From: Kappaphycus alvarezii
Taxonomy: Eukaryota; Rhodophyta; Florideophyceae; Gigartinales; Solieriaceae
Direction of reading: 5' to 3'
DNA: 64,000 bases
Assembly: GCA_002205965.3 (NCBI GenBank)
Contig: NADL03000666.1
Coordinates: 1,178,001-1,242,000 of the forward strand
Below the pieces are notes generated by a model. The model was not told the origin of the DNA. It ran no database searches and was given only the letters and a program-made list of their open reading frames with translations. How positions within the stretch are numbered: position 1 is the first letter of the stretch; every line of letters starts with the position of its first letter. This document shows positions 1,274 to 55,758 of the stretch, one piece after another. Both the position numbers and the translations under genes were made by a program.

Positions 1274-2707
1274 TGATAAGGTAAAAATGACGCCTACGGA
1301 AAAGGTAGACACTGAATACTCGAGCTAAGAGTCGTTGCGAGCGACTAAAGTGCTAAAGTAGGCGTTAATGGGCGATTAAGAGGAGTGGGATTGAATTCTG
1401 AGAGACTGCTCTAGTAACTAGCTCTAACTCTAAACGATTAACATCTGTCACCTCGCTTAGAGGCTAGGTAACTAATTGAAGGTTTTCGTTTGAAGTTGAC
1501 TTCCCAAGTTTCTTTCCGTCTCATAGAGGAAAAAACTTTACTTAGCATATATAGACTTTTTTCCAAACTAAAATCTCTATAAAAAATTTTAGAAGCACCA
1601 GAAAAAAGGAAAAGCTTGCATGTGGGCGCAATGCGCTCGACAGAAAATATTTGAAAGAAACTAAATGAGTCTACTTTTCAAAATCTTCATGCTCCTGGTC
1701 AGAACCTAGCACTTTCCTCAACATATCAGAAGTACCCATGTAGTCCCCACACAAGCCCGTGAATTTTCCACAATTGCCAACCCCTCGGTCCAACGAATAC
1801 TGCTCACCTGAGGCCCCTTCATCCAGGTCCATGACCGGGACCACCTTGCCCAACTAATTCATTCCTTCCGCTCCCATTGAACCCTGTTCGAAATTTCCAT
1901 CGACATCCGGGGACTCTTCATCTTCCTCATGTTCCTCTCCTTTCTCCCGCGACCCGTCCCCGGCCTCCTCTTCTTCCATCTCGTAGACCAGCTCGGGGCC
2001 ACCCACTCCTCGAAGCATACCCTAACTTTACGATCCTCCTCCAGCCCCACCCCACTGGTTTCTTTGCTCTGATCTCCACCAGGTCACGAGAATCGAGCTC
2101 CGTCAGACGTTTCCTGGTTTGACGACGAAGGTAGTCCTCGACGTCAGTTGGGCCCGAAGGGAGTAAAGGAGAGATGGTGATGGAGCAGGGGTGACGGATT
2201 CTGGAAACGGGGGTGCGACAAGGGGGTAGTCGGTGCATGATGGCTGTCAATGGGTGTGTGAATTTTTGATTCTTTGTTCTTGTAGGGACGTGGACAAATT
2301 TTGGACGGTGCTCGAATTGTTTAAATAGCGCCAAACGGCTTAGATTGACAGGCCCGCTGAATTAAAAAAGCAGGCGAAAATTAGTCCTGTACTGTGATTT
2401 ACTGAAAACTGCCTTAAAAAGGGTGATTTGTGGCGAAAATCGTATGTAGAAATATTGGCTGCGGAAAAAGATATTCAGGGACGAGTAAAATCAAATTAAA
2501 GGAAAAGAATAAAGACTTACCATCAAAGGGGAAGACAATCGCCCATTAAAAGAGAAAAGAGAGAAAGAAAAGAGTATAAAAAATGTAAATTTCGTCGCGT
2601 AAGAGAAAAAGTGGAGGGAGAAACGAACGAGAAGGTAGTGAAGAGAGAAAAGTAAAGGGCGGGGATTACTGAAAATAAAGATAGTACTTACAGTTTTTCG
2701 CTCAACA
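1274..2707 (-). mobile_element. Solo LTR (copy 1) of the acidic-ORF gypsy family
   Basis: On the minus strand this unit starts TGTTGAGCGAAAAAC and ends with a decayed form of the family terminus (plus strand TGATAAGG at 1274). It is flanked on both sides by GATGG (1269-1273 and 2708-2712), a perfect 5-base target-site duplication. Inside, in order, are a CTATTTAAAC box, a decayed acidic frame, a TATATATG box (about 1547-1554) and a conserved downstream part including GCGACTAAAGTGCT. This copy is the most diverged of the five LTRs. No internal gypsy sequence is attached, so it is a solo LTR formed by LTR-LTR recombination. Confidence 0.8.
1671..2238 (-). pseudogene. Acidic LTR-encoded protein, subfamily 1, decayed copy
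   Basis: On the minus strand a conserved N-terminal part (VEDYLRRQTRKRL) is followed, in a second frame, by FEEWVAP and an acidic stretch. In a third position comes the conserved end (VVPVMDLDEG, then GLCGDYMGTSDMLRKVLGSD). The same order is seen in the copies at 31.5, 38.7 and 41.5 kb, so this is the same gene broken by at least two frameshifts. The start at 2238 is chosen because an ATG lies there at the position matching the other copies. Function unknown; see the intact-looking copy at 38.7 kb. Confidence 0.7.
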
Positions 2708-26929: not shown

Positions 26930-27769
26930 CATCTTGGCTCCTCACAGTTCAGGACGCAACTTATCACCTCTCATGTACATTCCCTCGACGCATTCTTCAG
27001 CGCCGTCGTCGATATTGATAACACGCAAGTTGCATTTCAGCCCTTCCCAACTGCCTCAGGTCTGTAAGATAGGTTATTATTGTGCGTAGTACCGCCATCG
27101 TTCATCTCACACTGTGCTGCAATATTCGACGGAATGATGGAGCGTGGCGTCCGAACGTTGGTTGGAGGAGTCCTCGATTCTGAAATTTTTCGGGAACTGC
27201 AACTACCTGTAAAATCCAAGGAAGACAATAAAACTTCCCTTGGGGTAGGATTCACGCCTGTGAAAGATATCCTAGGTGCTGCATTTCTGGCCTCCAGTTC
27301 GGCCTCCAACAGGATGTGCGAAATTTTTTTGCTAGCCACCATCAAGAGTCTCACAATATATGAAGACGCCCTGGAGGCTCATCAGCTTTGGTATTAATCC
27401 TGCTTACAGTCAAGGATTCTTGCGTGCAGTGCCTTTTGCTTAAACAAAATATCTTCGCAGGAAACACTCACGGAAGTAGTCTGCGAGGCTGTGCAAGACG
27501 GTATACCTCTCGGAGAAGCAAGGAGGCAGTCTTTTCGTGCTTCGATGGCTCTACCACGGCCGAAAGATGGGCGTAATGTTACCAGTGCCCGGGTCTGGAG
27601 ACTAGCATCGACGCCCGCGAATTCTCGACATGGCTTCAATAATACTCTCAAGTTCCGCTTTTCGCTCCACACACACCGTGCCCGAAGGGAAACTGTCCGG
27701 AAAAACCGGACTGCTTCAGGGATCACCTCCTGCACTGTGTTCACGGAGGCCCCAGAATTCAAAGACTTT
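26930..27769 (+). pseudogene. LINE reverse transcriptase, thumb/connection region (decayed)
   Basis: On the plus strand, with frame changes, the order is SLDAFFSAVVDIDNTQVAF, then VVPPSFISHCAAIFD, then RELQLPVKS, then GFTPVKDILGAAFLASSS. This matches the region after the RT palm in protist LINEs, where a short Asp-rich helix, VPPS.I....FD, a LP(V/I) step and AAFLAS occur in this order. Reading continues to about 27765 with GIPLGEARRQSF and similar stretches I cannot align. The element is cut at 27769 by an LTR in the opposite orientation. Dead copy; the rest of the element is not adjacent on the far side of the LTR. Confidence 0.6.
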
Positions 27770-29223
27770 TGAGAGGGCTAAATCGTCGGAAGAAGAGATA
27801 CCCAGAACCAAATACCCCAAGAAGGAGGTGTTGCAAGCGACAAAAGTTCCGCCATGGTATAGTTGAATGAACAAAAAGGGTTGGGTAAGGACGACAGCTG
27901 AGATGGCTACAAGTAAGTATGGGAGTGGCAGCGTCTGCCACTGATGCTCTATGACCAGAGTAAGAAAAATGGTTCTTGGATCTGAAGTTGACTTTCAACT
28001 TCTTATTACTCGGGGTTTGACTTGAAGTTGTCTGCCAACTTGCTTGACCCCTACAAGAGGAAGCAGTTTACTCAGCTTTAACAGACTTTTTGGCAAACCC
28101 TTAAGTCTCAAATAAACATACTACGAACCATAAAATGCATCAAATGGAATCTTGTGAAGGAGAAAGACTAAGAGCAGATACTATCAGGATAAATACATAG
28201 ATTTCTTCCTTAATATCTTTGCCCTCTAGATAAAAGCCAAAAAATTCCCTCAAAATATCTGTTCCGCCCAAGCAGTCCCACAAATATCGTCGAACGGCTA
28301 AGAATTCTCCATTGCCTCTTGGGAAATATCTAGACCACTGAAGATGCCCCCATCCGGTTCAAGAGTCGGTACCATCTGGTCCATACTTTCCGGCCCCCTT
28401 CTTACCATTCCAGCACTTTCTATGCCTCTCTCTCCCTCATTCTCCTCTTCATCCTTGTCAGAAGAATCAGAGATAAATATTGCTCCCTCAGTCTCCCCTT
28501 CGTTCTCCAAAGGAGCTCCCCACTGTTGTACACTAGTGGCTCCCGCGGGTCCACCCAGTCCTCCTCTCCATCCTCCTCATCCTCCGCCTCCTCTTCGTCT
28601 CCGTCTTCGTCTTCTGGCTGCTCGAAGCAGTTACGGCGGACCCACTCCCGAAGGCGTTCCCGGTCCATTTTTCTACAGTAGTCATCGTAGTCGGATGGAC
28701 CATTTGCCATCAGGGCCAGAGCGTTGAGGGGATGGCAGCCTCGGGATGACTTGGCGATGGTGAGGGACGAGCGGAGGTTGGTCATGTTGAGGGGGAAAAA
28801 GGGGTAAGCCGATGGCATAGCTGATGGCGGGCGGGCTGCCTCAACGACGTCGATTTCGGACTTGAAATAGGTCAACGTACTCGAAGAGTTTCACGGACTT
28901 GGAAGAAATAAAAAATGTGAGGCAATGCCGCAGCTTTGAATATGCAAGCGACTAGGACAATAACTAAAAATCTGGTTGATAAAATATCAGAACTGAATTT
29001 GAGGGACAGAGCGGATCACGAGTCGAAAGATTCATATTTGAGAAAGGAGGACCACAATGCTAAACAAAATATAGAAATGAAATTGCACCGTGAATTTGGA
29101 TTCATAGGGGAAATTTGTTTCAGGATTTTGTTCGTAAAAGAGAATTGGTGGTAAGAGTTCTTTTTTTGAAAACTCATAAGGCAGGAAAATGCAGACGTTT
29201 GTGGAGATGACCATTTTCCTACA
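27770..29223 (-). mobile_element. LTR (copy 2) of the acidic-ORF gypsy family
   Basis: On the minus strand this starts TGTAGGAAAATGG and ends CCCTCTCA, with the family order between: U3 block shared with the 41 kb LTR (plus strand 28970-29110), acidic gene, TATA region, two hairpins (28025-28041 and 27984-28002) and conserved end. The second TATA box is decayed (TCTGTTAAAGC). The five bases beside it differ (ACTTT and AAAAG), so no target-site duplication is left. It belongs to subfamily 2 by its protein. Confidence 0.7.
28298..28785 (-). pseudogene. Acidic LTR-encoded protein, subfamily 2, one frameshift
   Basis: The start ATG at 28785 matches the other copies. The N-terminal part (PLNALALMANGPSDYDDYC, then RLREWVRRNCFEQ) is followed by a Glu/Asp-rich tract with DWVDPREPLVYN. 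A one-base shift near 28515 leads into the second half: GAIFISDSSDKDEEE, then MVPTLEPDGGIFSGLDIS, ending at a stop at 28298 before the conserved end (which continues in broken form to about 28245). It is the closest relative of the copy at 38.7 kb. The AIFIS-DSSD stretch resembles a SUMO-interaction motif. Function unknown. Confidence 0.75.
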
Positions 29224-29514: not shown

Positions 29515-29748
29515 TACCACAGCAAGTAATCCGCCGCCTTGCTCCCTTGTTGCTTCCCGTCGCGTTTCCTCCCTCAACAGGAGCTCCAACTTCGTTACCC
29601 GTTTTGCGTTAGTCTCCAAGTAATGCAGGCGCGACAGGTTTCCACCAGCCGCCCGCATCCGTAGTTAATTCATGAATACCCTCCGCACGCTTCTATGCAA
29701 CATTGGACAACCCATAAAAATTTACCTCCACAGCCAGAAAGGTGCTTA
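29515..29748 (+). pseudogene. LINE 3' end, lineage B, 5'-truncated
   Basis: Matches the last part of the element at 44.58-44.80 kb: CAACAGGAGCTCC, TTTACCCGTTTTGC-like, AATGCAGGCGCGACAG, CGCCCGCATCCGTAGTT and the terminal tail from GAATACCCTCCGC to about 29748. It codes in part for the end of the endonuclease-like domain. The terminal hairpin has a mismatch here (CGCACGCTTCTATGCAA). Confidence 0.75.
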
Positions 29749-31046: not shown

Positions 31047-32308
31047 TGATAGGGGTAAATCGTCGGGAAAATAGATACTCAGAACCAATTACCCAAGGAG
31101 GAGGTGTTGCAAGCGACAAAAGTGCTACCGTGGTATAGTTGGACGAAAAAACAGGAGTGAATAAGGAAGACAGTTGAGAGGGCTACAAGCAAGTATAAAA
31201 GCGGAAGGGTCTACTACTGATGCTCTGCGACCAGCGTAGGAAATGTTTTTCTTGGATCTGGAGTTGACCCTAAGCTTTCTACTACTCTGGACTTGACTTG
31301 AAGTTTTCTGCCAACTTGCTTCACCTCGCCATGAGGAAGCAGTTTGCTCAGCTTATATAGACTTTTGGCTACCCCAAAAGTCCAAGCAAAACTACAGAAG
31401 ATACCAGGAAATGCATAAAAACACTTTTTCTGGATGATATACTCTAAACAAAAGATACTTAAGAAACAAACAATCGATCTGGTCCTCTTATTTCCCGTTT
31501 TCTAGATCAGACCCGAAAAACTCCTCCAAAATATCCATGCTGCCCAAGCAGTCCCCACAAATATCTGCGAACGGCTCATAGTTCTCTATTTCCTCCTGGT
31601 AGATATGTAAACCACTAAAGATACTCCCATCCGGTTCCAGCGTCGACACCACTTGGTCATTGCCTTCCAGCCCTGGACCCACCATTTCAACAATTCCCAC
31701 GCCTCCCTTTCCCTCATCCTTGTCTTCGTCCTCATCCTCATCGTCATCGTCATCCTCATCATCCTCGTCATCCTCATCATCTTCATCATCCTCGTCCTCA
31801 TCATTCCTCATTGTTAACCTTGTAGACCAATTCCGGGGCTGCCCACTCCTCGAAGGTCTCCCCAGCTCCCTCCTCGACTTCCCACTCCTGCCCCTCAGGT
31901 ACCTCCTCCGCCTCCTCCTCGACGAATAAGCGACGCACGAATTCGATCACCTCTTTTTTTGTTTGTCGGCGTAGGTAGTCATCACGGTCAGTACTTCCGA
32001 AATGGGGTAGGAGAATGGAGTTTAGGGGGCAGGGGTGGCGATTTTTGGTGATAGAGGCGGAGGGGCAGAGGTTTTTCATTTTGGTTGTAAATGGAGTGGG
32101 CCGATTGTGGATGGAGGGTAGAGGGTGCAAGGGGGAGGGTAGTGTGTGTAGGGGTTGGTGGATCTCAAAAAAGTTGGGTAAAACGGGTTTAAGTACACCT
32201 TCGAGGCGGACTGGAGTCGGTACAAAAAGTTAAAATCGAAATTACAATAGCGCATTTGCGTGAAAGTTCTCATAAGGAGTGAATTTGATGAAGAAGGTAG
32301 ATAAAAAC
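31047..32308 (-). mobile_element. LTR (copy 3) of the acidic-ORF gypsy family, 5'-truncated
   Basis: On the minus strand it ends with the family terminus CGATTTACCCCTATCA (plus strand TGATAGGGG at 31047). It carries TATATAAG (plus strand 31353-31360), the acidic gene and about 220 bases upstream of its start. The first part of U3 (about 220 bases by comparison with the 41 kb copy) is missing at 32308. There it meets, head to head, a 75-base remnant of an LTR on the plus strand. The second hairpin is degraded. Confidence 0.75.
31488..32079 (-). pseudogene. Acidic LTR-encoded protein, subfamily 1, one frameshift
   Basis: The ATG at 32079 begins MKNLCPSASITKNRHPCP. Then come DRDDYLRRQTKKEVIEFVRR, EEEAEEVPEG and FEEWAAPELVYKV. 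A shift near 31805 leads into a long Asp/Glu tract and the conserved end: MVGPGLEGNDQVVSTLEPDG, then FADICGDCLGSMDILEEF and FGSDLENGK before the stop at 31488. The Asp tract is a near-perfect triplet repeat in DNA (CAT/CAA/CCT triplets on the plus strand), so a slippage frameshift is likely. Function unknown. Confidence 0.8.
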
Positions 32309-32379
32309 ACCTCCTCCTTGGGTTAATTGGTTCTGAGTATCTCTTCTACCGACGATTTACCCCTTTCATTTGTTACTCT
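32305..32379 (+). repeat. Remnant of gypsy 5' LTR
   Basis: AACACCTCCTCCTTGGG to TTTACCCCTTTCA matches the last 65-75 bases of the other family LTRs. It shares the CCTCCTCC variant with the truncated LTR on its left (minus strand), while the 3' LTR reads CCTCCTTC. The next base begins the internal leader; I could not identify a convincing primer-binding site. Confidence 0.7.
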
Positions 32380-32457
32380 TGTGGAGGGTGTTGCACCGGA
32401 GGTATTCGAGCTGAGCAGTATCAGGCAACACTTCGGGGGAGTTTCTTTTCTGCAATC

Positions 32458-33878
32458 ATGGATCTCAACGCTGCTCGTATAACGTTCACAGGAGACAAGA
32501 GTGAAGACGTAGACCAGTTTCTCTATACATATGTTTTGTTTTGATGCGTGAGAAGAGCGATGAAGAGAAGGCCACAAGTATCTTTGCCTATCTTTATGGT
32601 GACGCAAAGCATAAATATAAGGCCAAGTTTATCTACGGGTGGTCTCTTAACGGGAATGGGCGTAACTTCGGTGAGTTATGTGAGTGGCCTGTGAATTATT
32701 ATGCCAAGGAGGTAGAACCAGATGAGATGATTCGTACCGTCATAGAGGCCCGGCTCAATTTCGACGATTTGTTAACCTCATTGGTATACTTGTGTGATCT
32801 CTAAGAAAAGGCTGGGTTCAACGCCCAAGGCAAGTGTGGAATGCTGCGTAAGGCGGCGGTGGAGGACAAGCGGCTCTTCGATTTCCCCCTCATCAAGGGC
32901 CCTCGCACTTTTAATGAACTGAAGGGTACTATAGTAGAATTTGTCAAAAACTCGGAGACATTTCTGTCACTGAGTGAGGTACCCAGGGAAACCTATACAT
33001 CGATGTCTATCGAACATCTTGGAAGGAATTATCAAAGGCCGGCTTCTAGTGCAGCGGCACTAGAATCTGTCAGGAGCGATGTCAAAAACTTGGAAGAACG
33101 GCTGGAAACCCGATTCGATAATCGACTTGACATGATTACCTCGCAGTTGGAGAGCCATACTCTTACCATTAAGAATAATCAGTCTGGGGCCCCTAAGGCC
33201 GCAGAAGCCTGTTCCTACTGTCACAAGCCTGGACAATTTGCAAATAGTTGTCCTGATAATCCACAAAGAAGAACTCGTTGTGGAAATTGCGGTTGATATG
33301 GGCATCATGAAAGTAACTGCTGGTCTAAAGACAACAGGAGAGTAAATTTATCGGCCGCAAGGAGCGAGTCAGGACCAGAGATGAAAATTTTACTAAATGA
33401 AAAGGATCAAAAGTTGACGGATGCCGGTAACGTATCCATCGCTGAAGAAATCAGTCAAGTCAATGTGACAAAAAGGGATGGGGAAGGGAACATTTTATCG
33501 AAAAACCCTAGGCTAGATTATGGAATGCTGGAACATATCCCAGCACCTGTACCTCCTCGGACCAAAAGGTCTGATCAAGTTTTTCCAGGAGTGGAAAACA
33601 CTCCGGCCAAGAAGACGGAAAAGAGTAAGAAATTTAAGAGTATCCCGAAGGACTTACTAGAATATGTGAAGAAGTACAATTTGGTGGCTGAGCTTGCATC
33701 AGCCCCAACTGTGATAACGTTTGGTCAACTTTTGAGGGGCGACGCAGAGGACGCGAGAAAGAACTCAAAAAAATTATCAGGTCTAATAAGTCCGCTAAGG
33801 GTAAGAAATTGTTTCTTCAATCGGCCCCGACAGCACCAAGACGTCTTAAGCTGGTACCAGTCAAGGTATTGGGAATAG
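32458..33878 (+). pseudogene. Gypsy gag with CCHC zinc knuckles
   Basis: The first ATG (32458) starts MDLNAARITFTGDKSEDVDQ, a typical gag opening; a frame change follows near 32535. The main frame (32541-33878) has stops at 32802 and 33294. Visible parts: a capsid-like region, a coiled-coil stretch with heptad-spaced Leu/Val (about 33060-33130) and two zinc knuckles. The first (33210-33251, CSYCHKPGQFANSC) has Gln where His is expected. The second (33279-33320) has the full C-C-H-C pattern but is interrupted by a TGA. A charged Lys/Glu-rich part follows. The end overlaps the protease frame by about 70 bases. Confidence 0.75.
33767..33773 (+). promoter_or_regulatory. Candidate -1 ribosomal frameshift site
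   Basis: Heptamer A AAA AAA in register with gag codons (Ser-Lys-Lys at 33765-33773). Slipping back one base enters the protease frame, which is open from here through the protease core. This matches the usual gag-pol arrangement. No downstream structure was modelled. Confidence 0.4.
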
Positions 33879-34174
33879 AATCCCAAGCTCTTTTCGATTC
33901 GGGCGCTGGTCCAAACCTCCTTTCGGAAACTTTGGTGAGAGATCTAGGTATCGGAATCATTCCAACTACTCGAAGAATGACTGTTGCCGATGTAACTGTA
34001 TCAAAATGCATGGGCACTGTTCACAAGGTTTCCGTGTTCTTCGGGGACTCTAAAGTTGGTGTAGACTATCTTGTCATGCCTGACCTACCTTTCGATGCAA
34101 TTAATATTTGCCCTACCATGGAAAGACTAGGGGCATGCTTGACTTGGTCAACCAAAGCGTTTCAGTTCATATAG
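33774..34174 (+). pseudogene. Gypsy aspartic protease
   Basis: The core motif ALFDSGAGPNLLSE (about 33888-33930) is the D-S/T-G-A active site of retroviral-type aspartic proteases. It is followed by a hydrophobic strand (DYLVMPDLPFDAI) where such proteases have their second conserved motif. The frame is -1 relative to gag and ends at 34174. An acidic linker in a third frame (34192-34386) follows before RT. Confidence 0.75.
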
Positions 34175-34739
34175 ACGGTAGAACCGTGTAAATGTCCCTG
34201 GACTTCGACAAAAGTATACACCCGGAAGATTTAAGAGACACGGACAGTGAAGATTTCACCTCTAGCTATGACATCGAAGAATTCGAACCAACTAACATTT
34301 TCAGAAATGGAAAAGGGTACGCTCGAGGGATAATGAACATGGCATGGGATTATTATGATTCTGGGTTTGAAAAAGATGACGACTGAAATTCTAGGGCAAA
34401 TTTGAGACCCGAATGTGTTTCCCCTTGCAATAATATCGAACCAAAGGACGTCATTCAGAGGATGAAAGAAGATTACCTTTGCGAAGAGGATTAGAATATG
34501 TGGATTTCCATATCTGAAGATATAAGAATTCTGGAAGAGGTCCTTCAAAATATGGATGGTAAGGATCAAGAAGAAGAAGGGCGCAAGATGGCAGAAAATT
34601 AAGAAAAATTACAGCACCTTCCCGCGCCCGCCTCAATGAAAATGTCCGACATGTTAACATCTTCCGAAGTAATTGCATGGAGCTTTTCAGATCTAAGACA
34701 AGCAAGTTAACCGGTCACTCACTCATTTGAACTTACTGA

Positions 34740-35440
34740 CACTCAACCAATTTACCACAGGCCTAGACGTAAACCGCCGAAATATGACCAATTTATCCCA
34801 GAGAATGTTACAAGTATGCTGGAAAATGATATTACTCGGGCAGTTTCATCCCCATGGTCCTTTCCAGTTGTGGTAGCACCAAAGAAAAATGGAAAACTTC
34901 GCTTTCGCGTCGATTACCGACAACTGAACCAGAGAATGATACCCGATCGATTTCCGATTCTAAAAATGGAGGAAATCCTCGAGAACTTGAAGGAAGGGAG
35001 ATATTCCACATCGATTGACCTTTACACTGGCTATTGGCAGATTCCATTGCATGAAAAATGTAACGAAAAAACAACCTTTACCTGCAAAGCCGGTATGTTC
35101 AGATTCGAAGTGATTCCTTTGGGTCTCATGAATGCACCAGCTACGTTCCAAAGAATCATGAACGAGTTTTTGAAATGAATTCCATTTGCAAGAGTTTATA
35201 TCGATGATGTGATGATATTCTCAAGAACCTTGGATCAGCACATGTCGCATGTCAAGACAGTAGTGGATAGGATATCGGTATACAGCCTGAAAATTAAGTT
35301 GAGCAAATCTTTGCGAAAACTTCTATCCAATTACTCGGTCATGTCGTCGATCAAAAGGGAATTGAAGTGGATACAGAGAAAAAGAAAAAAATCAAGTTGG
35401 CACCACGGCCCGCTTCAAAGACGGAGGTTCGAAGCTTCTT
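34740..35440 (+). pseudogene. Gypsy reverse transcriptase
   Basis: Clear RT motifs in order: SPWSFPVVVAPKKNGKLRF, VDYRQLNQ, STSIDLYTGYWQIPL (motif A with catalytic Asp), KTTFTCKAGMFRFEVIPLG, NAPATFQRIM (motif B) and VYIDDVMIFS (motif C, YIDD at 35197-35208). A TGA at 35176-35178 separates motifs B and C in the same frame, and a shift follows near 35310. All three catalytic aspartates are preserved, so the copy is only moderately decayed. Confidence 0.9.
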
Positions 35441-36000
35441 AGGACTTGCCTCATATTACAGAAGATTTATCAAAGGTTTCGCCAAGACCGCAGCACCGTT
35501 ACATGCCAGCACTACGAAGAACGGAAAATTTTACTGGAACAAGGAAATGAAAACTGCATTTGAGGAGCTTAAAGATAAGCTATGTGTCCCCCCAGTGCTC
35601 ATGTATCCAGATTTCGAGAGAACATTTGTTGTGGAAACAGATGCATAAGAACGTTCTTTGGGTGCCGTTTTGTCCCAAAAAGATGAAAACGAACGACTGC
35701 ATCCTGTTCAATTCGCAAGTCGCACTCTGAAGGATACGGAAAAGAGATACTCAGTCTGCGAGAAAGAAGCGCTAGCTGTCGTCTTTGCACTGAAAAAGTT
35801 TCGCCTGTACCTTTTATCACTCGAAACATTTGTCTTGATTACTGATCACCAGGCACTTAAGGCAGCATTCCAAAAGAAAGATGTACATCACCGCTTAGCT
35901 CGATAGCTTGATATTTTCGCAGAATATCGGTTTGAAATTGTGTATAGGCCCGGACACAATAATCAGCCTGCCGATTACCTATCCCTCTTGAGGGATCCAC
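35380..36000 (+). pseudogene. Gypsy RNase H
   Basis: After SFLGLASYYRRFIKGF (tether/connection), the RNase H core runs TFVVETDA (first Asp), then a stop at 35646, then EKRYSVCEKEALAVVFAL (catalytic Glu) and LITDHQAL (Asp). A stop at 35904 precedes EIVYRPGHNNQPADYLS, the usual RNase H end. Frame is otherwise continuous with integrase. Confidence 0.88.
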
Positions 36001-37110
36001 TGATTCCAAATGAAAAAGCTTCCGAGGACATCGTCGGAGTTGCCGAGGTGCAAGTGCCGATCAATAACGAGTACGAAGCTTATATTCACGTACTTATTAA
36101 ACTCCTTGATGGACTAGAAATGAGAAAGGTTGATCTCGAACACAGAAATTGGGTACTAAGGAACCAAAAGGCTTTTACATTGTGGAATAGGAAACTCTTC
36201 CGACACACAAAAGCCGGTCCTCGACTAGTGGCCCCTATGAAAGAAATAATGAAGATTTCGAGGACTTTCCATGATGAGTTAGGGCATTGCGATCTCTAAA
36301 CAACCAAAAACTTCATTACGGAGAGATTCTGGTGGCCCAATATCCATAAGAACGTCTATAATTTCGTGAAAAGCTGTGAAAACTGTCAAAAATTCACTCC
36401 GATACGAAAGTATAAGACAACTTTAAGCTTTCCAGTTTCCGGTCTCTTTGAAACCTTCTCAATTGACTTTGCCGGCTCATTCAAGGAAACCTCTTCGGGA
36501 AACAAAAATATCGTTACAGGGGTGGAACATCTCACTGGATGGCCAATAGCAGTTGCAGTTGAGGAGGCAAATGATGAGGTGGTCCTGAGATTCATCGAAA
36601 AAGAAATAATTGAACCGTTTGGTCTTCCGAAAAGGATCATCTCGGAAAACGCCCTTTGTTTTTCTGCAATTTCACTGCTTCGTTTTTTGGAAGAGAAAGA
36701 GATTCAGCTGAAGACAGTTCTTGCTTACGCTCCTATGTCAAACGGTAAAGCGGAGAGGATGGTTGGAACCCTCAAACTAGCAATATATAAAACTATGTCG
36801 GAGAATGAAATCCAGTGGGAAGATGCCTTACCAAAAGTACTATACGGCTATCGTCGAAGAAGAGGAAGAAATGGACGCTCACCATTCGAGCTAATGTACG
36901 GAAGGGCTCCTAGAATGTTACAGAGAGACATGGAAACAAATATTATCGATGAAGAGAGTAGAGAAGTTGAACTACTGGCCACCGAAGGCTGGAGATCACA
37001 CCGCGCGCTAACATAGACAAGAAATGAGGGTGCAGAGCCTCCAGTCCGAACCTTTTCAGTCGGCTCTAGATTACTTGTAATACATGGAAAAGCAATGCAG
37101 CAGGCTGTGA
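36000..37110 (+). pseudogene. Gypsy integrase
   Basis: A zinc-binding H-H-C-C domain is visible (FHDELGH, then NFVKSCENCQKF), broken by one stop at 36297. The catalytic core follows: TFSIDFAGSF (first Asp), IISENALCF where the second Asp is replaced by Glu, and NGKAERMVGTLK (catalytic Glu), then SPFELMYGRAP. The open part is 36366-37016. The Asp-to-Glu change would be expected to impair or abolish catalysis. The C-terminal part is degraded. Confidence 0.88.
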
Positions 37111-37326
37111 AGTTGCCGGCCTTCCAAACAAAGTACTCGAACCCTTGCATCGTCACGGAGGAAAGACACCCGCATTATAAGCTCTGTTCAAGCTCAGGAA
37201 GAGATTAAGGATGGCCATCCATGCACGTCGTCTGGCCCTTACCATCAGAGGCCTGAAGAATTCCTTCTCACACAGGACTATGCGCAACCACGGGGCATAT
37301 TCATCTTTAACTATAGAATAATTCCT

Positions 37327-38378
37327 ATGGGAGGAAAAAGGGCCTGGGAATGGATCATCTCGATTACGTGGGACTACTACGAACTCCACGTAATCATCCA
37401 TTTCTATATTAATATATGCCTATGTTTTCGTACATTGAACGGACCATTGCTACCTCAAGAAGATTTCCGACTATTAATAAGAGTCCTATTTTCATTCCAA
37501 AACGGAAGGTTCACGGAAGCAGGTCCAGAGTTTGTGGAAGTAATATATCATTAATCTATAGGAAGGTATGGAATGGTAGCTATCGGAGACTTGTCGCGAA
37601 CGTATCTGAACATTGTCCGTCCGATTTACGTATTTCTCAAGAACAACCAAGATGTGCGACTGAGAGGTTACGCCTTACCCCCTGATATGGAGTATCGACT
37701 GGTCCCGTATCCTCTATGGGAACCTTACGTTTCTCCGCTCAGGAACACAAACTCAGCTGAAGATCAAGTTCCTCCCGAGACCTTCATGACGATACGAGCA
37801 GGACCATCAAGTGATCGGGGCGGATCATCGAGGAGGGCAAGGCGTCAGGAGCAGCGAGGAAGATCACCAAGAAGATCACCTCGAACACCGCCTAGTCTCC
37901 CAGGGGAAACTATGCCTACTTAATTATTGGACGACTACCAATCAGACGTTGGCTTCGTGAGATAGCAGAGGACCCTCGAGAAGCAGAAGTAATTTCCTTT
38001 TTTGCCATTAGTATTTCCATGTGCTTCCAAACCATTCACGGGGCGCACCTGACTCTTGAGGACTCAGTTCTTATATTGGGAGTTTTTTTCTCCTTCAGAT
38101 ACCCGTTTCTGGACCCGTTGCCAGAAAAGTTTCCATACTACGTCTACTATCTCACATTTAGAAGGTTTGGAGATGTGAAACGGGAGAGGCTCATTAGAGA
38201 ACACTATGAGACCATACGCCGAATCTACGAAACTCTTGACAAAGGAGATGAGCCGGTCATCGCATGATACACACTCTCTCATCATATTGGAAATGAGCTA
38301 CTACCATATCCTTTTAGTCAATCATTTACTCTCCCTGATGAATGGATAGAACTCCCACAAGAACAACAAGGGCATTAA
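37327..38378 (+). CDS. Extra gypsy gene after integrase: two diverged modules joined by an Arg/Ser linker
   Basis: The first module (about 37330-37750) reads with one stop at 37552. The second (about 37925-38378) is in a shifted frame and carries one stop at 38265. They align: INICLCFRTLNGPLLPQEDF with ISISMCFQTIHGAHLTLEDS, RVLFSF with GVFFSF, YLNIVRPIYVFL with HYETIRRIYETL, and YRLVPYPL with NELLPYPF. Between them is a basic linker rich in Arg and Ser (RRARRQEQRGRSPRRSPRTP, about 37823-37890). No known family recognised. Its place between integrase and the 3' LTR is that of accessory (env-like or other) genes in some gypsy elements, but no signal or membrane segment typical of env is obvious. 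True start unknown; coding status inferred from the conserved duplication. Confidence 0.6.
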
Positions 38379-38401
38379 TGACGAGCCGGGACGATCGTCT
38401 T

Positions 38402-38417
38402 GAGCGGGAGGGCGTGA
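38402..38417 (+). promoter_or_regulatory. Polypurine tract before 3' LTR
   Basis: GAGCGGGAGGGCGTGA directly precedes the LTR start TGTGCGCAAAA, the expected site for plus-strand priming. It is not a perfect purine run, so the exact boundary is tentative. Confidence 0.5.
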
Positions 38418-38643
38418 TGTGCGCAAAATTTGCAAACGAAAAAAAATCTAGAGGAGGATCAAATTAGGATACAGTATCGGAATTTGGAAGATATTTTTAC
38501 AGTTTCTGAATTTGCAAGATATTTTTAATTTGGATGAGTGTGGAAAATTCATGACTTGATTATTTATTTTAAGACACAGTGTCATTAATGGATGTCATTA
38601 CTGTACACGTCCAAGGTCGACATACTTTTCGAAGACGTCGCAG

Positions 38644-38651
38644 TATTTAAA
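38644..38651 (+). promoter_or_regulatory. TATA-like box upstream of the LTR acidic gene
   Basis: TATTTAAA about 78 bases before the ATG. The same box precedes the gene in the LTRs at 41365-41372 and, on the minus strand, near 2331-2340; it is degraded in the other two. Conserved position suggests a promoter for the acidic gene separate from the retroelement promoter. Confidence 0.5.
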
Positions 38652-38728
38652 CTTCGAAGTCGACGTCGTTGAGGCAACCCCCCGCCATCAACTACCCCAT
38701 CGGCTCACCCCTTCTTTTAGCCCTTAAC

Positions 38729-39310
38729 ATGATCAACCTCCGCCCTTCCGTCACCATCACCAAGTCATCCCGAGGCCGTCGTCCACTCAACGCTTTGGCC
38801 CTGATGGCAAATGGTCCAACCGACTACGATCATTACTGTAGAAGTTTGGACCGGGAACGCGTTCAGGAGTGGGTCCGCCGTAACTGCTTCGAGCAGGCAG
38901 AGGAAGCAGAGGATGTGGAGGAGGGAGAAGAGGAGTTAGAGGAAGAGGAGGATGAAAAGGAGGACTGGGTGGATCCGTGGGAGCCACTAGTGTATAACGG
39001 TGGGGGGTCCCATGGAGGAAGGAGGGAGACTGAGGGAGTAATTGTGATCTCTGACTCTTCTGACGAGGATAAAGAGAGGAGAGAAGTGGAGGAAGAGGAG
39101 GATGAGGGGGAGAGAGACATGGAAAGTGCTGGATTAGTGGGGAACGGGCCAGAAAATATGGACCAGGTTGTCCCGACTCTGGAACCGGATGGGGACGTCC
39201 TCAGTGGTCTAGATATTTTGCAGGAGGCAATGGATAATTCTAAGGCGTTCGCGGATATTTGTGTGGACTGCCTGGGTGGAATGATATTTTGGGGAACTGT
39301 TTGGCTCTGA
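38729..39310 (+). CDS. Acidic LTR-encoded protein, subfamily 2 (most intact copy)
   Basis: About 193 residues from the ATG at 38729. Parts in order: basic start (SVTITKSSRGRRPLNALALM, 8-27), a helical conserved stretch (DYDHYC to EWVRRNCFEQ, 32-56), a Glu-rich tract with DWVDPWEPLVYN (57-90), VIVISDSSDEDKE (104-116) which looks like a SUMO-interaction motif, a second acidic tract, then the family end VVPTLEPDGDVLSGLDILQE and FADICVDCLGG. A one-base loss near 39278 changes the last residues; in the other frame the usual end (ELFGSDVED) can still be read. It lies wholly inside the 3' LTR, between two TATA boxes, on the same strand as gag-pol. Function unknown; a nuclear regulatory role is inference from composition and motifs only. 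Confidence 0.75.
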   Translation: MINLRPSVTITKSSRGRRPLNALALMANGPTDYDHYCRSLDRERVQEWVRRNCFEQAEEAEDVEEGEEELEEEEDEKEDWVDPWEPLVYNGGGSHGGRRETEGVIVISDSSDEDKERREVEEEEDEGERDMESAGLVGNGPENMDQVVPTLEPDGDVLSGLDILQEAMDNSKAFADICVDCLGGMIFWGTVWL

Positions 39311-39457
39311 TGTAGAGGACTACGATATTAAGGAAAGAATCTAGATATTTATCCTGATAGTATCTGCTGTAAGTCTTTCTCGTTCACACGATTCCACTTG
39401 ATGCATTTTATGGTTCTTAGTATGTTTCTTTGAGACTTTAGGGATACTCAAACAGTC

Positions 39458-39464
39458 TATATAA
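39458..39464 (+). promoter_or_regulatory. Retroelement TATA box in 3' LTR
   Basis: TATATAA followed by GCTGAGTAAACTGCTTCC, conserved in the LTRs at 42222-42228 and, on the minus strand, at about 31353-31360 and 1547-1554. Position after the acidic gene and before the hairpins and conserved terminus suits the U3/R promoter. Confidence 0.55.
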
Positions 39465-39770
39465 GCTGAGTAAACTGCTTCCCCTTGTGGAGGTCAAGCA
39501 AGTTGGCAGACAACTTCAAGCCAAGTCCTGAGTAGTAGGGAGTTGAGAGTCAACTTCAGACCCAAGAAACCTTTTTCCTACGCTGCTCACAGAGCATCAG
39601 TGGTAGACCCCGCCCCTTTCATACTTGCTTGTAGCCCTCTCAACTCTCTTCCATATACATTCCTTTTTGTTCGTTCAACTATACCACGGTAGCACTTTTG
39701 TCGCTTGCAACACCTCCTTCTTGGGATAGCTGGTTCTGAGTATCTCTTCTCCGACGATCTACCCCTATCA

Positions 39771-41036: not shown

Positions 41037-41364
41037 TGTCGGAACGAAAAAGGTCCTCTTCGCATCTTGAAATCCGTCCTTGACTAATCGACCAACCTTT
41101 GTCTTCCCAAAACAAATTCTGATTATCTTTTTCCTTTATGAATCCAAATTCACTGTACAACTCCATTTTCTATTTTATGTTTGAATATTTGGTCCTCCCC
41201 CTTCAAAGAGACGCCTTTCAATTCGTGGTCACTTCGCCTCCCAAATTCAGTTCTGATATTTTATCACGCAGATTTTTATGATGCCCCCGAATTCATGCAA
41301 ATCCAAGGCCGCATTATCGCCTTTTTTTTGACCAAGACCATGATGATTACCAAAGACATGCCCC

Positions 41365-41372
41365 TATTTAAA
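41365..41372 (+). promoter_or_regulatory. TATA-like box upstream of the LTR acidic gene
   Basis: TATTTAAA about 110 bases before the ATG at 41480; same relative place as in the 3' LTR at 38644. Confidence 0.5.
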
Positions 41373-41479
41373 GTGCTATAACATTGTCGCTGAAGCACCA
41401 CTCCTACCACCAACAATTTGATAAGCTGGTTACCCTTTCTGTCAACATCCGCAACCCCGCTCACCCCTTTTCCAGAAAT

Positions 41480-42093
41480 ATGACGTCAAATCGCCCCTCT
41501 GTGCCTATCTCAAAAAACCGCCCTTCCCGTCCCATCAATGGCCTCCGTCTCGCCGCCTACGGGCCAAACGATGCCGACAACTACATCCGGCGGCAAACTA
41601 AGAAGAAAATCATCGAGTTCGTTCGCCGCCTCTTCATAGAAGAAGAGGCGAGGGAGGTAAGTGAGGATGAGACTGAGAAAGTCGAGGAGGAGAGCGGGGA
41701 GTCCTTCGGGAATAGTTAGCCCCTGAGCTAGTGTACGAGAATCAGGAGAAGGATGGGGAGGAAGGGGAGGAAGAGGAGAAAGAGGAGAAAGAGGAGGAAG
41801 AGGAGGAAGAGGAGGAAGAGGAGGATGAGGAGGATGATGAGGACGAGGACGAGGTCGACGTGGATGAGGGGACAGAGGGCGTGGAAAGTGTTGGACTGGT
41901 GGGGCCTGGACTGGAGAGTATGGAACAAATGGTGCCGACGCTGGAACCGGATGGAGATATCTTTAGTAGTTTAGTGATCTCCCAGGAGGGAATAGAGAGC
42001 TATGAGCCGTTCGAAGATAATTGTGGGGACTGCTTGGACAGCATGGATATTTTAGAGGCGTTCCTGAGATCTGATTTAGAGAATGGGAAATAA
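41480..42093 (+). pseudogene. Acidic LTR-encoded protein, subfamily 1 (one shift, one stop)
   Basis: The ATG at 41480 begins MTSNRPSVPISKNRPSRPIN. Then come NDADNYIRRQTKKKIIEFVR, RLFIEEEAREVSED and a Glu-rich part ending at a stop at 41717. The next part, one frame over, has APELVYEN, a very long Glu/Asp tract (about 41745-41860), then VGPGLESMEQMVPTLEPDGD, EPFEDNCGDCLDSMDILEAF and LRSDLENGK before the stop at 42093. The C-terminal pattern of acidic residues with Met-Ile-Leu-Phe (SMDILEAF) resembles acidic activation domains. Subfamily 1 lacks the VIVIS-DSSD motif of subfamily 2. Confidence 0.8.
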
Positions 42094-42221
42094 GAGGACC
42101 TCATTGATTGTTAGTTTCTTAAGTATCTTTTGTTTAGAGTATCTCATCCACACAAATTATTTGTATGCAATTCCTGGTACCTTCTATAGTTTTGTTCGGA
42201 CTTTAGGGGGAGCCTCAAGTC

Positions 42222-42228
42222 TATATAA
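42222..42228 (+). promoter_or_regulatory. Retroelement TATA box in solo LTR
   Basis: TATATAA followed by GCTGAGTAAACTGCTTCC, conserved among the LTR copies. Confidence 0.55.
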
Positions 42229-42263
42229 GCTGAGTAAACTGCTTCCTCATGGAGAGATCAAGC

Positions 42264-42321
42264 AAGTTGGCAGACAACTTCAAGTCAAGTCCCGAGTAGT
42301 AGGAAGTTGAGAGTCAACTTC
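42264..42321 (+). repeat. Twin hairpins downstream of the LTR TATA box
   Basis: Stem 1 is AAGTTG / CAACTT (42264-42269 with 42275-42280). Stem 2 is GAAGTTGA / TCAACTTC (42303-42310 with 42314-42321). Equivalent pairs occur at 39500-39555 (plus) and 27984-28041 (minus). They lie about 35-100 bases after the TATA box, near the expected 5' end of the element RNA. Confidence 0.6.
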
Positions 42322-42540
42322 AGACCCAAGAAACCTTTTTCCTACGCTGCTCACAGAGCATCAGTGGTAGACCCTGCTCCTTCCATACTTGCTTGTAGAC
42401 CTCTCAACGCTCTTCCATATACACTCATTTTTGTTTGTTCAACTATACCACGGTAGCACTTTTGTCGCTTGCAACCCCTCCTTCTTGGGGTAGTTGGGTC
42501 TGAATATCTCTTCTCCCGACGATTTACCCCTATCAAAGTT

Positions 42541-44449: not shown

Positions 44450-44800
44450 AGGACGTGCGCAGTCACCATCGATGTTACTGTTGCCTACCCCTCCGCACGC
44501 CACCACATTTCGCCAAGTACGGTTACCGCAGGCGCTGCCGCAACACTCGCAGAGCGCGAGAAACTCGTCATTACGGCGCTTACTGCAATGCCTTGCTTCC
44601 TTCGCTGCTTCTCGTCGCGGTTCCTCCCCTCAACAGGAGCTCCGCGACTTCTTTACCCGTTTTGCATTTAGTCTCCAAATAATGCAGGCGCGACAGATTA
44701 CTACCCGCCGCCCGCATCCGTAGTTTAGTTAATTTATGAATACCCTCCGCACGCTTCTGTGCGACATTGTACAACCCATAAAGATTTACCACCACGTCCA
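44450..44800 (+). pseudogene. LINE C-terminal region and 3' end, lineage B
   Basis: TIDVTVAYPSARHHISPST, GAAATLAEREK, then in other frames RHYGAYCNA and ASFAASRRGSSPQQELRDFF, matching the endonuclease-like end of protist LINEs. The 3' untranslated part contains CGCCCGCATCCGTAG and ends in a tail with a hairpin (CGCAC-GCTTCT-GTGCG at about 44751-44766) and AAAGATTTACCACCAC. Minus-strand copy at 46.84-47.25 kb; other 3' ends at 29.5, 45.55 and 47.88 kb. Confidence 0.75.
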
Positions 44801-45442: not shown

Positions 45443-45548
45443 TCAATCTTTATTGCATAGTAAAATATCCTCATTCGGAGGCATTCGCACGCCATCTTTA
45501 GACGCGACGCCGCAATGAAAAGATACGAAAATCCCCTGTTGCTGTAAT

Positions 45549-45613
45549 TGATGAATACCCTCCGCACGCTTCTGTGCGACATTGTACAACCAATGAAGAT
45601 TTACCACCACTGC
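45549..45613 (+). repeat. Isolated LINE lineage B 3' tail
   Basis: Only the last 65 bases of lineage B (GAATACCCTCCGCACGCTTC to TTTACCACCAC), with an intact CGCAC/GTGCG hairpin. No coding part is attached. Confidence 0.75.
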
Positions 45614-46843: not shown

Positions 46844-47250
46844 TGGTGGTGGTAAATCTTTATTGGTTATACAATGTCGCACAGAAGCGTGCGGAGGGTA
46901 TTCATAAATTAACTACGGATGCGGGCGGCGGGTAGAAACCTGTCGCGCCTGCATTATTTGGAGACTAAATGCAAAACGGGTAACGAAGTCGCGGAGCTCC
47001 TGTTGAGGGGAGGAACCGCGACGGGAAGCAGCGAAGGAAGCAAGGCGGCGGAAAAAACCCTTGCCGTCGTCGCCCAAGGCGCCATAGATATCAATCCCTA
47101 CGGGGAGAGGAGGATATCGTTTTGGTTGCAGTAAGTGCCGTAATGACGATGTTTCTCGCGCTCTGCGAGTGTTGCGGCAGCGCCTGCGGTAACCGTACTT
47201 TGCGAAATGTGGCGGCGTGCAGAGGGGTGGGCAACAGTAACGTCGACATG
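46844..47250 (-). pseudogene. LINE C-terminal region and 3' end, lineage B (minus)
   Basis: Minus strand: HVDVTVAHPSARRHISQST, GAAATLAEREKHRHYGTYC, then the 3' region and terminal tail ending at 46844 (GTGGTGGTAAATC on the plus strand). It is inverted relative to the copy at 44.45 kb, so the two could form a long stem if transcribed together. The hairpin in the tail is intact. About 60 bases (near 47055-47110) have no counterpart in the 44.6 kb copy. Confidence 0.75.
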
Positions 47251-47875
47251 AATGTACAGTAGTATATATTTTTTGCTCATTACTTGTGTGAGTACCCGAA
47301 AACTAGCATGGTAGTCGAGCTGAAAGCAACATGTTCTTCGCGCTTGCAGACCGTACATTTTGGAGGAAAATACACGGATTTCCTCACAAGGCGAATGATT
47401 GAAAGTCGAAATGACACTTATTCTTCTTTCCAACAACAGATCACTTGGCCATTATCAGTCCAGCAAATCATTCTTCTCTAGTGCTTACAGTTCAAAAGTG
47501 CAGACAATTCTAACTTGCTTCGATCCCAAATGATCCTTGGTAAAATTCCTATACGATGTGCACTATAATTTCGATTGGGGAGCGGCACCTAGCACCAGGA
47601 CAAGTTTCTCCTTGTATGCTTCCACGCACGGGAATAATAATTTGGTCAGCAATGTATTACATTCATCCGTTAAGGTGGTGAAATCCATGTGAGGGCTCCA
47701 CAACCTCTCTTCATCTACGGCCACTGAGGAATTTCTTACGATATTTTGACACTGAGCACACTAATTGATCTTATGCCAGCAGGGCGAATTTCTAGATTAC
47801 TGCAGTAAAAATTCGACTCTGCTCATTCGGTAAAATAACTGTCACTGTATTGACAGTTCTACGCGCTGCTTATTT
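47251..47875. other. No gene recognised
   Basis: Short frames only; the upstream flank of the inverted LINE tail. Confidence 0.35.
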
Positions 47876-47938
47876 CTGAATACCCTCCGCACGCTTCTGT
47901 GCAACATTGTACAACCCATAAAGATTTACCACCCACAC
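47876..47938 (+). repeat. Isolated LINE lineage B 3' tail
   Basis: GAATACCCTCCGCACGCTTC to AAAGATTTACCACCC with no coding part; immediately followed by a lineage C fragment. Confidence 0.75.
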
Positions 47939-48075: not shown

Positions 48076-48653
48076 GTTCTCCAGTTCTCCAAGGAGTTCA
48101 AGGCGCCTTGCTCATCCCTGTGTTCATAGGCTTGTACCCATTGTACCAAGTGCCTTTGGAAACAATGCGCCTCACTATTCAATCAGCAAAAGACCACAAG
48201 ATTCGCCCTGTTAGAGTATAGAGCATTGGGTCTTATGATAAACAGTTGTCCACCAGGCCCCCAACAACATAGACCAATGACGGCTTCTTGTTTGAGAATC
48301 AAAATGATTTCTGAAACTATCAGCTCCATGACGTACATGTCATACCGGAAAGCGTAAGACAACAAAGAGAGAACTTGCTCAATTTCGATAGTAAGTAGCA
48401 GGTTTTCGACACCATGGTCTGTTTCCACGCAAGAGGTAGCACCCAGGTAAACCGCAAATATCCCCTTGTAATGCAGGAACAGTGCGTCCGCTAATAGAGC
48501 TGTTGGACGATGAATAGTTTCGGCATTTCTCTCCAGCGAACAATGTATAAGATAAAGCCCTCAGCCAAGGAGAACTCTCGTCTACCAACCTTACCAAGCA
48601 GTGGCCATTACATAGCTGTAGACCGATTTGGCTGATACCACCTCCGTCTCGTC
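48076..48653. other. Upstream region of the vWA gene
   Basis: No gene recognised; open frames on the minus strand are short and match nothing I know. It should contain the promoter of the vWA gene, but I see no clear TATA box. Confidence 0.35.
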
Positions 48654-50062
48654 ATGAATTTCTTAATCTTCTCGACTGCCGTTCTGCTAACGATTACCTA
48701 TTGCATGGATGAAGCAAATTCGCTCCCAACGCAAGTGTCCCGAACCGAGATTCCCCTATCTACTTCTCCGGATCCGCTTTGCACCGGTTCCTGTTTCGTC
48801 GGCTCTGATGGACGATTCACGGCGGAAGCCGAGTGTCGGAATAGAATTGGCTGTGCTGTTAGCGCTTGTGCCGTACGATCAAGAGGTCCGAAATCAAGAA
48901 TCCGTCCAAAGTCGAAAAATCGTCCAAAGTCGAAAAATCGTTCAAAGTCAAGAAATCGTCCGAGATCAAGCACTCTTCGCTCAACGTCAAGCATCCGTTC
49001 AATGGCGGGATATGCGTGCAAGCCCGTACCTGCCGCTCCAATTATCCAGGAAGGTCCGCTTTCGATTCCTGCAGAAGTGGAATTTCCTCCCGAAACTATT
49101 GTTGGTGGGACTGTTACAGCTGAAATCACTATTGCCGTTGATGAACTATCAAGCTCTTCTCGAGAGGATTTTTACCTTCTTTCTGATGCCACGGGATCAA
49201 TGGCCGACCAAATCGCTCAGGTTCGGGAAGATTTCAGCAGCCTTGTTCAGGCTAGGACAAACGCCTCTGAAAGTGTAGCTTTTGGAGTAGGATACTACCG
49301 GGACGAAAGAGAAAGGCCACCATTCCGAAATTTACAAAGCATAACTGAAGATTTTTCCCTTGCAAGTGCTGCAATTAATCTTCTTGAAGCGCAGGGAGGC
49401 CTTGATATTCCAGAGGCAAACCTGTACGCTTTAAATGAGGTGGCAACTTCTGCCGAGATTGGATGGAGACCGAGCACACGTCGAATCCTCGTTTACTTTG
49501 GGGATTCCCCGGCCATGAGCCCACATGCCCTAACGGCGCAGAGCTAACTCGAGAAGATGTTATTGAACAACTTAATAGGGAGGGAATTGCTGTCGTGGCT
49601 ACTAACTTTGGTGGTGTTAGAACAGGGCTGAATGCGGTGACAGTGAGCACGCCGGGAAACGGAAGGTTTGGCTGTGGTAACCCCCTTGCGCGGACCAGGG
49701 CTGGACAAGCTAACGATATTGCTGCTGGAACGCAAGGTGTCGTTGCTATGGCAGATGATCCTAGGGAACTGGTCGACATTATTGTTGATGCAGTGCAGAG
49801 CTTAGATCAAGAGCTCTCTGTGGTCACGAATGATTGTGCCGGCAGAGTTAAAGTCGAATTTTCACCAGACTTGCCACTCCGTATTGCTGCGGGGGAAACT
49901 AGAACTATCATGGAAAGAGTCACTATTTTGCCTGGTGCTTGCAATACGCCTGATGGACTTCTATGCGAAATTAGCATCCAGGTAAGCGGTGTAGGAGTCA
50001 GACAAATTATTCAGACAACAACTATCGCCGGTTGCACCGGTGAAGATGGATTCTTTTCGTAG
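48654..50062 (+). CDS. Secreted vWA-domain protein (one frameshift)
   Basis: The ATG at 48654 starts a signal peptide (MNFLIFSTAVLLTITYC). A Cys-rich segment follows (residues 43-72, six Cys), then a basic Arg/Lys/Ser tandem-repeat linker (75-116). The vWA domain runs from about 150, with the metal-site motif LLSDATGSM (Asp178; DxTGS form), GGLDIPEANLYAL (249-260) and RILVYFGDSP. At about 49513 one base appears missing: the frame changes and continues GHEPTCPNGAELT, REDVIEQLNREGIAVVATNF and onward to a stop at 50062. The end resembles an all-beta domain (KVEFSPDLPLRIAAGETRTI). The FGD(S/A)PGHxPxC pattern is typical of integrin-beta-like vWA domains. Likely extracellular, adhesion or matrix. 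One frameshift could be a true lesion or a sequence error; no other stop is present, so I favour a real or recently lost gene. Confidence 0.75.
48890..48965 (+). repeat. 18-base tandem repeat in the vWA gene
   Basis: About four imperfect units of AATCGTCCAAAGTCGAAA, coding N-R-P-K-S-K. It forms the basic linker between the Cys-rich part and the vWA domain and may vary in length between individuals. Confidence 0.75.
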
Positions 50063-55533: not shown

Positions 55534-55758
55534 TTAATACTCTTGGTTTTCCTCAACTACCCCGAACATCTTGAAGTTCGAGGTCTTTTTGGCCTTTTTT
55601 GCCGCAAAGCGGTACTTCAGTTCCTGCAGTGCCCCTGTTCGATTCAAGGCAAAGAACTCTTTCGCCATCTCCGATTCTGATCCGCCAGGGCCACCCGTGA
55701 ACAGGAATATCTCGTTCGGTTGGGTACTATTGGATATTTTTATCTCCAATTTTACCAT
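55534..55758 (-). CDS. Unrecognised small frame beside the Harbinger fragment
   Basis: 74 codons: PNEIFLFTGGPGGSESEMAK and LQELKYRFAAKKAKKTSNFK. It converges with the transposase fragment. Harbinger elements often carry a second, DNA-binding protein gene, which this might be, but I do not recognise a Myb or trihelix pattern. Its start coincides with the left boundary of the large duplication copy 2. Confidence 0.3.
   Translation of the reverse strand: MVKLEIKISNSTQPNEIFLFTGGPGGSESEMAKEFFALNRTGALQELKYRFAAKKAKKTSNFKMFGVVEENQEY

Follow-up and report, generated by a model that had tools for sequence, protein, structure and literature searches.

Lentiviral nef and foamy virus bel2/bet are accessory genes that reach into U3 and overlap the LTR only in part. 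In MMTV, as described in the available portion of the source, U3 carries Sag/Naf and holds a separate promoter, P2, from which it is expressed independently of the other U3 promoter (PMC9412291). For Ty3/gypsy elements of plants and fungi, the accessible portion of another paper locates additional ORFs internally, in most cases downstream of pol and ahead of the 3' LTR, and reports that most copies of a family retain them and that they are mostly of unknown origin and function (PMC7264820). For crapaud, an LTR element of Podospora, the 5' half of the LTR is described as variable, and gene conversion or ectopic recombination is suggested in the excerpt at hand (PMC10787394). MMTV provides a known case of a gene contained entirely in an LTR, and a search of the open-licence PMC literature found no report of such a gene in a Ty3/gypsy LTR. 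The locus described here is probably an accessory protein gene situated wholly inside the LTR of a Ty3/gypsy retrotransposon with several subfamilies.

The window, i.e., the whole stretch of 64,000 nucleotides of Kappaphycus alvarezii DNA that was analysed, is abundant in retroelements. The initial annotation had reported five LTR copies in it, all of which exist. Copy A (1274..2707, minus strand) is a divergent solo LTR with the target site duplication (TSD) GATGG, and copy E (41037..42535, plus strand) is a solo LTR with the TSD AAGTT; both duplications are perfect, 5 bp long and located directly at the LTR ends. Copies B (27769..29223, start corrected to 27769) and C (31047..32309, end corrected to 32309) are on the minus strand, and a search for target duplications at these two copies found none. 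Copy D (38418..39770, plus strand, TGTGCG...TATCA) is the 3' LTR of a gypsy element. Copy C abuts the 5' LTR remnant of the same element (32306-32309), inverted relative to it and without a TSD, a junction that is likely a rearrangement or deletion. Copy A has no blastn match (E 1e-5) to the other four copies, and its gene matches that of copy C as protein with an E-value of 2.5e-9 against the window. A small fragment at 4057-4193 is 72-74% like the LTR part downstream of the gene, with no gene block among the tblastn matches listed. Elsewhere in the window, two long AT-rich repeats (16972-25458 and 55758-63779) are 72-81% identical in pieces and hold one open stretch of at least 150 aa between them. 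A short repeat family around CCCTCCGCACGCTTCT (29530-29734, 44469-44795, 45545-45613, 46846-47246 and 47870-47933) may be the terminal part of a non-LTR element. An integrin-beta-like von Willebrand A reading frame at 48636-50062 is split over two overlapping frames, the first of which matches Integrin_beta with an E-value of 2.2e-9, and a remnant at 1-840 resembles, by eye only, the terminal part of a copia-type pol.

The element to which copy D belongs retains about 63 bp of its 5' LTR (32306..32368, plus strand), followed by an internal region (32369..38417, plus strand) with many stops, which comprises gag-like, protease, reverse transcriptase (RT), RNase H, integrase and ORF3 parts. Pfam recognises the protease, RT and integrase pieces, the RNase H was identified by eye only, and the frames follow the order protease, RT, RNase H, integrase. 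The RT piece (34711..35178, plus strand) matches RVT_1 with an E-value of 1.2e-17, and the nearest solved structure is that of Ty3 (4ol8, E 1.8e-27); the integrase piece (36300..37016, plus strand) matches Integrase_H2C2 (7e-10). Judged by domain order and the Ty3-type RT, the element classifies as a Ty3/gypsy (Metaviridae) LTR retrotransposon, which agrees with the earlier statement that one copy is a gypsy 3' LTR. LTRs of the TG...CA form with short target duplications are found in the gypsy family. The sequence that follows the 5' LTR was read by eye for a tRNA primer binding site, a reading that named no clear site, and ARAGORN detected no tRNA anywhere in the window. A search at E 0.01 turned up the gag, protease, RT and integrase pieces only once each in the window, and the window integrase has many copies in the genome, at 90-93% identity. 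Scans of viral and genome contig collections for integrase and LTR motifs returned no relatives. Between the integrase and the 3' LTR lies a broken ORF3 (37327-38264), in which an R/S-rich linker connects two domains, each about 100 aa long and related to one another (E 2e-10); Pfam gave no match for it, and its structure model is poor (45.5).

Each of the five LTR copies contains a homologous sense coding sequence with an ATG block, an acidic tract and a C-terminal block. The conserved N-terminus, acidic tract and conserved end proposed earlier are therefore present in all five; of the further proposal that all five LTRs hold the same acidic-protein frame, the homology and the sense direction stand, yet the frame is open only in D, while A, B, C and E each have at least one frame change or stop. 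Gene copy D (38729..39310, plus strand) is a 193-aa frame plus stop, with its last residues in a shifted frame. In copy A (minus strand) the N-terminal frame, at 1930..2238, is broken, and the C-terminal block lies in a different frame at 1674..1853; likewise in copy B (minus strand), with a broken N-terminal frame at 28423..28785 and the C-terminal block in a different frame at 28301..28498. The N-terminal frame of copy C (31804..32079, minus strand) is broken in the acidic tract, with the C-terminal frame at 31491..31805, and that of copy E (41480..41716, plus strand) is also broken, with the C-terminal frame at 41716..42090.

The protein encoded by copy D is acidic, with a pI of 4.1 and 52 D+E residues, and its charge is unevenly distributed: net +4 over the 57 aa of the N-terminal part, net -29 over the 83 aa of the middle and net -9 over the 53 aa of the end. 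This acidic C-terminal end also holds bulky hydrophobic residues and, as we take it, resembles acidic activation domains; the stretch VIVISDSSDED resembles a SUMO-interaction motif. The structure model presents a long helix at residues 29-54 and three short C-terminal helices, at low confidence (mean pLDDT 55). When the D protein was compared with 5.8 billion proteins, nothing was found at E 1e-3 (177 candidates). A profile built from the gene pieces of the window yielded a single match at E up to 10, P0044 (E 1.5e-3, 4954 candidates); its identity to copy A is 49% along 95 aa. Searches of Pfam, PHROGs and PDB returned weak matches only and hence no known protein family. Pfam includes an entry for Sag. 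The matches from Pfam-A scans up to E 1 were weak and all fell in other families, and the protein is not placed with MMTV Sag.

A putative promoter of the D gene, TATTTAAA, is located at 38644..38651 (plus strand), 85 nt ahead of the ATG. The same box occurs upstream of gene copies E (41365..41372, plus strand) and A (2320..2327, minus strand), such that it lies 85-115 nt upstream of the ATG in A, D and E; the matching place reads TATTTCAA in B and only CTTAAA in C. The upstream box proposed in the initial annotation is hence exact in three copies, but not in B and C. In total, TATTTAAA occurs nine times in the window on both strands. A second TATA box, TATATAAG (39458..39465, plus strand), follows the gene in D and is the putative promoter of the genomic RNA, the U3/R border being a presumed one. 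It is also found 3' of the gene in C, E and L064, an LTR of a second element treated below, and it reads TATATATG in A and is mutated in B. The ATG has an A at position -3 in all five window copies, and an upstream ATG after +30 is absent in four of the five. Among the 30 best matches of the D protein in the genome, TATTTAAA occurs at most 130 nt before the start of the match in 23, and a purine stands three bases ahead of the match start in all 30, 27 of which begin at residue 1. As in the MMTV-like layout, the whole gene is enclosed by the LTR start on one side and the putative genomic promoter on the other, given the TSD-flanked solo LTRs and the position of the gene before TATATAAG. The gene is most likely located in U3.

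Selection was assessed on the N-block, i.e., the 55-56 codons from the ATG, and on the C-block. With protein-guided alignments, the N-block yields a pN/pS of 0.29 (0.19-0.42) for C-E, 0.39 for D-E, 0.43 for B-E, 0.48 for D-C and 0.62 for B-C, pairs in which dS is past correction or above 2.7. The close pair B-D presents 0.79, which is not different from 1 and thus indicates no constraint, and the comparisons against A are weaker (0.63-0.75). For the C-block, the values are 0.26-0.51 for C-E, D-E, B-E, D-C and B-C, 0.53 for B-D and 0.52-0.89 for the A pairs. When the same base changes were placed at random, the observed protein identity was reached in none of 2000 placements, in both directions, for C-E, C-D, D-E, B-C and B-E, which make up 10 of the 20 directed comparisons; the A pairs reach it in 1 to 98 of 2000 placements and B-D in about half. 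These protein-guided alignments, in both the pN/pS and the random-placement tests, tilt somewhat toward protein identity. With DNA-guided alignment of the N-block, the true frame presents 0.30-0.65 for C-E, C-D, D-E, B-C and B-E, against 1.08-2.05 for the two other frames; in A-B, however, the true frame gives 0.83 and one of the wrong frames less, 0.78. In the C-block, the DNA-guided values are 0.74 for C-E and 0.87-0.96 for the A pairs. Controls taken from the non-coding LTR end are noisy, with a pN/pS of 0.38-1.66 and codon-position counts that are even for C-E (15, 14, 12) and uneven for B-D (21, 20, 9) and C-D (19, 8, 15). The N-block of L064 presents 0.34-0.40 against ten stop-free D-type copies, with upper limits below 0.60, as well as 0.29 against C, 0.63 against A and 0.40 against E (limits 0.14-1.12). 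On the level of sequence comparison, these values establish that purifying selection acted in the past between subfamilies, not within B-D and weakly with A. In our view, the LTR frame was a real gene, to judge from these patterns.

The host genome (336 Mb, 884 contigs) was searched with the RT family, the D protein, the window integrase and the D LTR end. In the D-protein search, 150 of 9253 first-look candidates were scored, which yielded 154 matches, figures that do not represent copy numbers; the best 30 matches, own copy included, were taken as the genome sample. They cover LTR D from end to end or within one base at 89.9-93.7% identity (100% for the own copy). Seventeen are solo LTRs with perfect 5-bp TSDs, three are 5' LTRs followed by the internal start, four are 3' LTRs preceded by the internal end (one on the basis of 38 bp only), and six were placed in none of these classes. 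The earlier claim of a conserved gene wholly inside a gypsy LTR is hence upheld, as TSD-flanked solo LTRs and 5' and 3' LTRs alike carry the gene. The matched part is a stop-free frame in 12 of the 30, and the stops fall in 16 different columns. Relative to the neutral expectation, the nonsynonymous share is 0.93 for private changes and 0.71 for shared changes; the pooled pN/pS is 0.66, and 0.83 in the first 60 columns. Given the private changes, the scattered stops and the minority of stop-free frames, D-type copies decay almost freely after insertion. The dN/dS test that had been called for thus gave a divided answer: between subfamilies the ratio is well below 1, yet the copies of one burst are close to neutral.

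A sample independent of the gene was drawn with the D LTR end as query, which leans toward D-type LTRs: 40 of 3511 candidates were scored, and every second one of the 39 others, 20 in all, was read. Gene blocks are present in 18 of these 20, both blocks in 17, in one frame in nine and without a stop in two; the remaining two are short LTRs without the gene. The idea that each solo LTR stays a gene is therefore contradicted by this sample, with both blocks in one stop-free frame in only two of 20, by the window, where four of five copies are broken, and by the near-neutral private changes; the scattered stops and the 12 of 30 stop-free frames likewise lead us to reject every solo LTR as a live gene. 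A young element, C508 (L063/L064), has LTRs of 1531 and 1540 bp with eight mismatches in 1530 positions (0.5% apart), 11 gap columns and the TSD AACCG. Both of its LTRs have the gene block with the ATG, as expected from the proposed two genes per element, but the frame stays open only in the 3' LTR (203 aa), while that of the 5' LTR breaks after 90 aa.

With the window integrase as query, both ends were read around 10 of 149 other hits, seven ranked at the top of the hits and three further down. Eight of the ten elements have pairs of short LTRs, with 717-737 aligned positions and 91-100% identity, four of which are flanked by TSDs; no ATG frame of 80 aa and no gene block was found inside these eight pairs. 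The gene is thus not general in the gypsy family, contrary to what had been assumed. Long LTRs in this sample are those of C508, and L057/L058 lacks a clean LTR pair and has a gene block in its 3' piece. Gene blocks are present on the reverse strand in L054 and L059, outside the LTR pairs. Short LTR L068 corresponds to D at both ends, with 84% identity along the first 185 nt and 87% along the last 434 nt; what it lacks is the stretch that includes TATTTAAA and the gene. Copies D and B are 89% identical in the gene N-block and 46% in the U3 part before the gene, while D and E are 92% identical at the LTR end and 48% in the N-block; we infer from these mosaics that parts of the LTR were exchanged between types. 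Since A, C/E and B/D, types that diverge from one another, all have the gene, its loss from the short LTRs is favoured. Since eight of ten integrase-sampled elements lack it, the gene is not needed for the recent transposition of the short-LTR subfamily, and since these relatives have their LTR ends in common with the gene-bearing window element, and an integrase 90-93% identical to the one found there, the gene is either dispensable for some elements or supplied in trans.

Several other readings of the frame were weighed. It could be a chance or low-complexity frame, in which a GAG/GAA-rich acidic tract stays open without coding, and the tract is indeed repetitive and E-rich, with an antisense frame of 154 aa also present in D. 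However, the selection signal comes from the N-block, which does not include the tract, similarity is still seen between proteins where the DNA no longer shows it, and the 219-codon open stretch of LTR D was reached in none of 500 dinucleotide shuffles (the largest being 189). With frame-specific constraint seen in several comparisons, this reading was rejected as highly improbable. Even less credit is due to the frame being the tail of an internal gene that runs into the 3' LTR, a situation reported for some other gypsy elements. Although the broken ORF3 sits directly before the LTR, its stop falls at about 38265, ahead of the 3' LTR, whereas the open stretch of D begins at 38651, inside the LTR, and has its own ATG; moreover, solo and 5' LTRs carry the frame too, and on that ground the reading was discarded. 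It is doubtful that the gene belongs to R instead of U3, in which case TATTTAAA would be the promoter of the genomic RNA and the gene its first frame, repeated at both RNA ends. The conservation of TATTTAAA in divergent copies and the putative U3/R border would allow for this, but TATATAAG is kept as well, even in the two gene-less short LTRs that were aligned, as expected of a genomic promoter.

What the gene does for its carrier invites further alternatives. A foreign gene with its promoter may have entered an ancestral U3 as a selfish cassette that hitch-hikes and spreads by recombination without benefit. The module is present in some relatives and absent in others, and in LTR D a 5' end of the short type (84%) is fused to a gene of the B type (89% in the N-block, 46% before the box), both of which suit such a cassette; constraint on several subfamily branches, on the other hand, needs a benefit to something copied along with the gene, and we find this scenario unlikely. 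The protein itself may act as a particle, nuclear-import or integration factor, e.g., a chromatin-binding acidic protein, and not as a regulator of transcription. The long acidic tract and the predicted N-terminal helix fit histone- or chaperone-type binding equally well, yet recent transposition without the gene speaks against an essential role, unless the protein is supplied in trans. A particle or integration role is somewhat unlikely and ranks next after that of a nuclear regulator.

The preferred reading remains that of an accessory gene inside the LTR: it is located within the LTR in sense direction, it occurs in 5', 3' and solo LTRs, and one young element has two copies of it. Under this reading, the upstream box TATTTAAA, in many copies about 85-115 nt before the ATG, would be the gene's own promoter, and TATATAAG after the gene would most likely drive the genomic RNA. 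By analogy with MMTV, the upstream box may give rise to a short mRNA from either LTR, in which case the protein could be made apart from gag-pol. The product would have a basic N-terminal stretch with one predicted helix, a long acidic tract and a C-terminal block with acidic and bulky hydrophobic residues. Composition and the low-confidence model tentatively suggest a nuclear regulator of LTR transcription or chromatin state. A more speculative extension, which we consider improbable, is that of a trans-acting regulator pooled over many LTRs, solo copies included, which gene-less young relatives use as well, i.e., a common resource passed from one LTR type to another through recombination. 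If true, this would be the first two-promoter U3 gene in a Ty3/gypsy lineage, shared element-wide. A gene in the LTR is doubled per element, can persist where just a solo LTR is left, and can be exchanged along with the promoter region. Given gene-bearing and gene-less relatives exist in one genome, the benefit of the LTR gene and the dependence of gene-less copies on it are directly addressable.

In comparison with the described systems, this family resembles crapaud in that strongly diverged upstream LTR halves are joined to a shared downstream half, and differs from it in the LTR gene, which the available part of the crapaud paper does not mention. With the Ty3/gypsy elements that have additional ORFs, so far as the accessible text describes them, it shares an accessory gene, yet here this gene is inside the LTR, and an ORF3 is found in the usual place as well. 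Unlike nef and bel2/bet, the whole gene lies inside the LTR. The family also departs from MMTV, a betaretrovirus, in being a Ty3/gypsy element with an acidic protein that has no Pfam family match and in lacking the gene in a related short-LTR subfamily. The likeness to MMTV Sag/Naf, as far as the consulted portion of that source goes, is in the layout: the gene is inside U3 in sense direction, hence one per LTR, with a separate U3 promoter, which is putative here.
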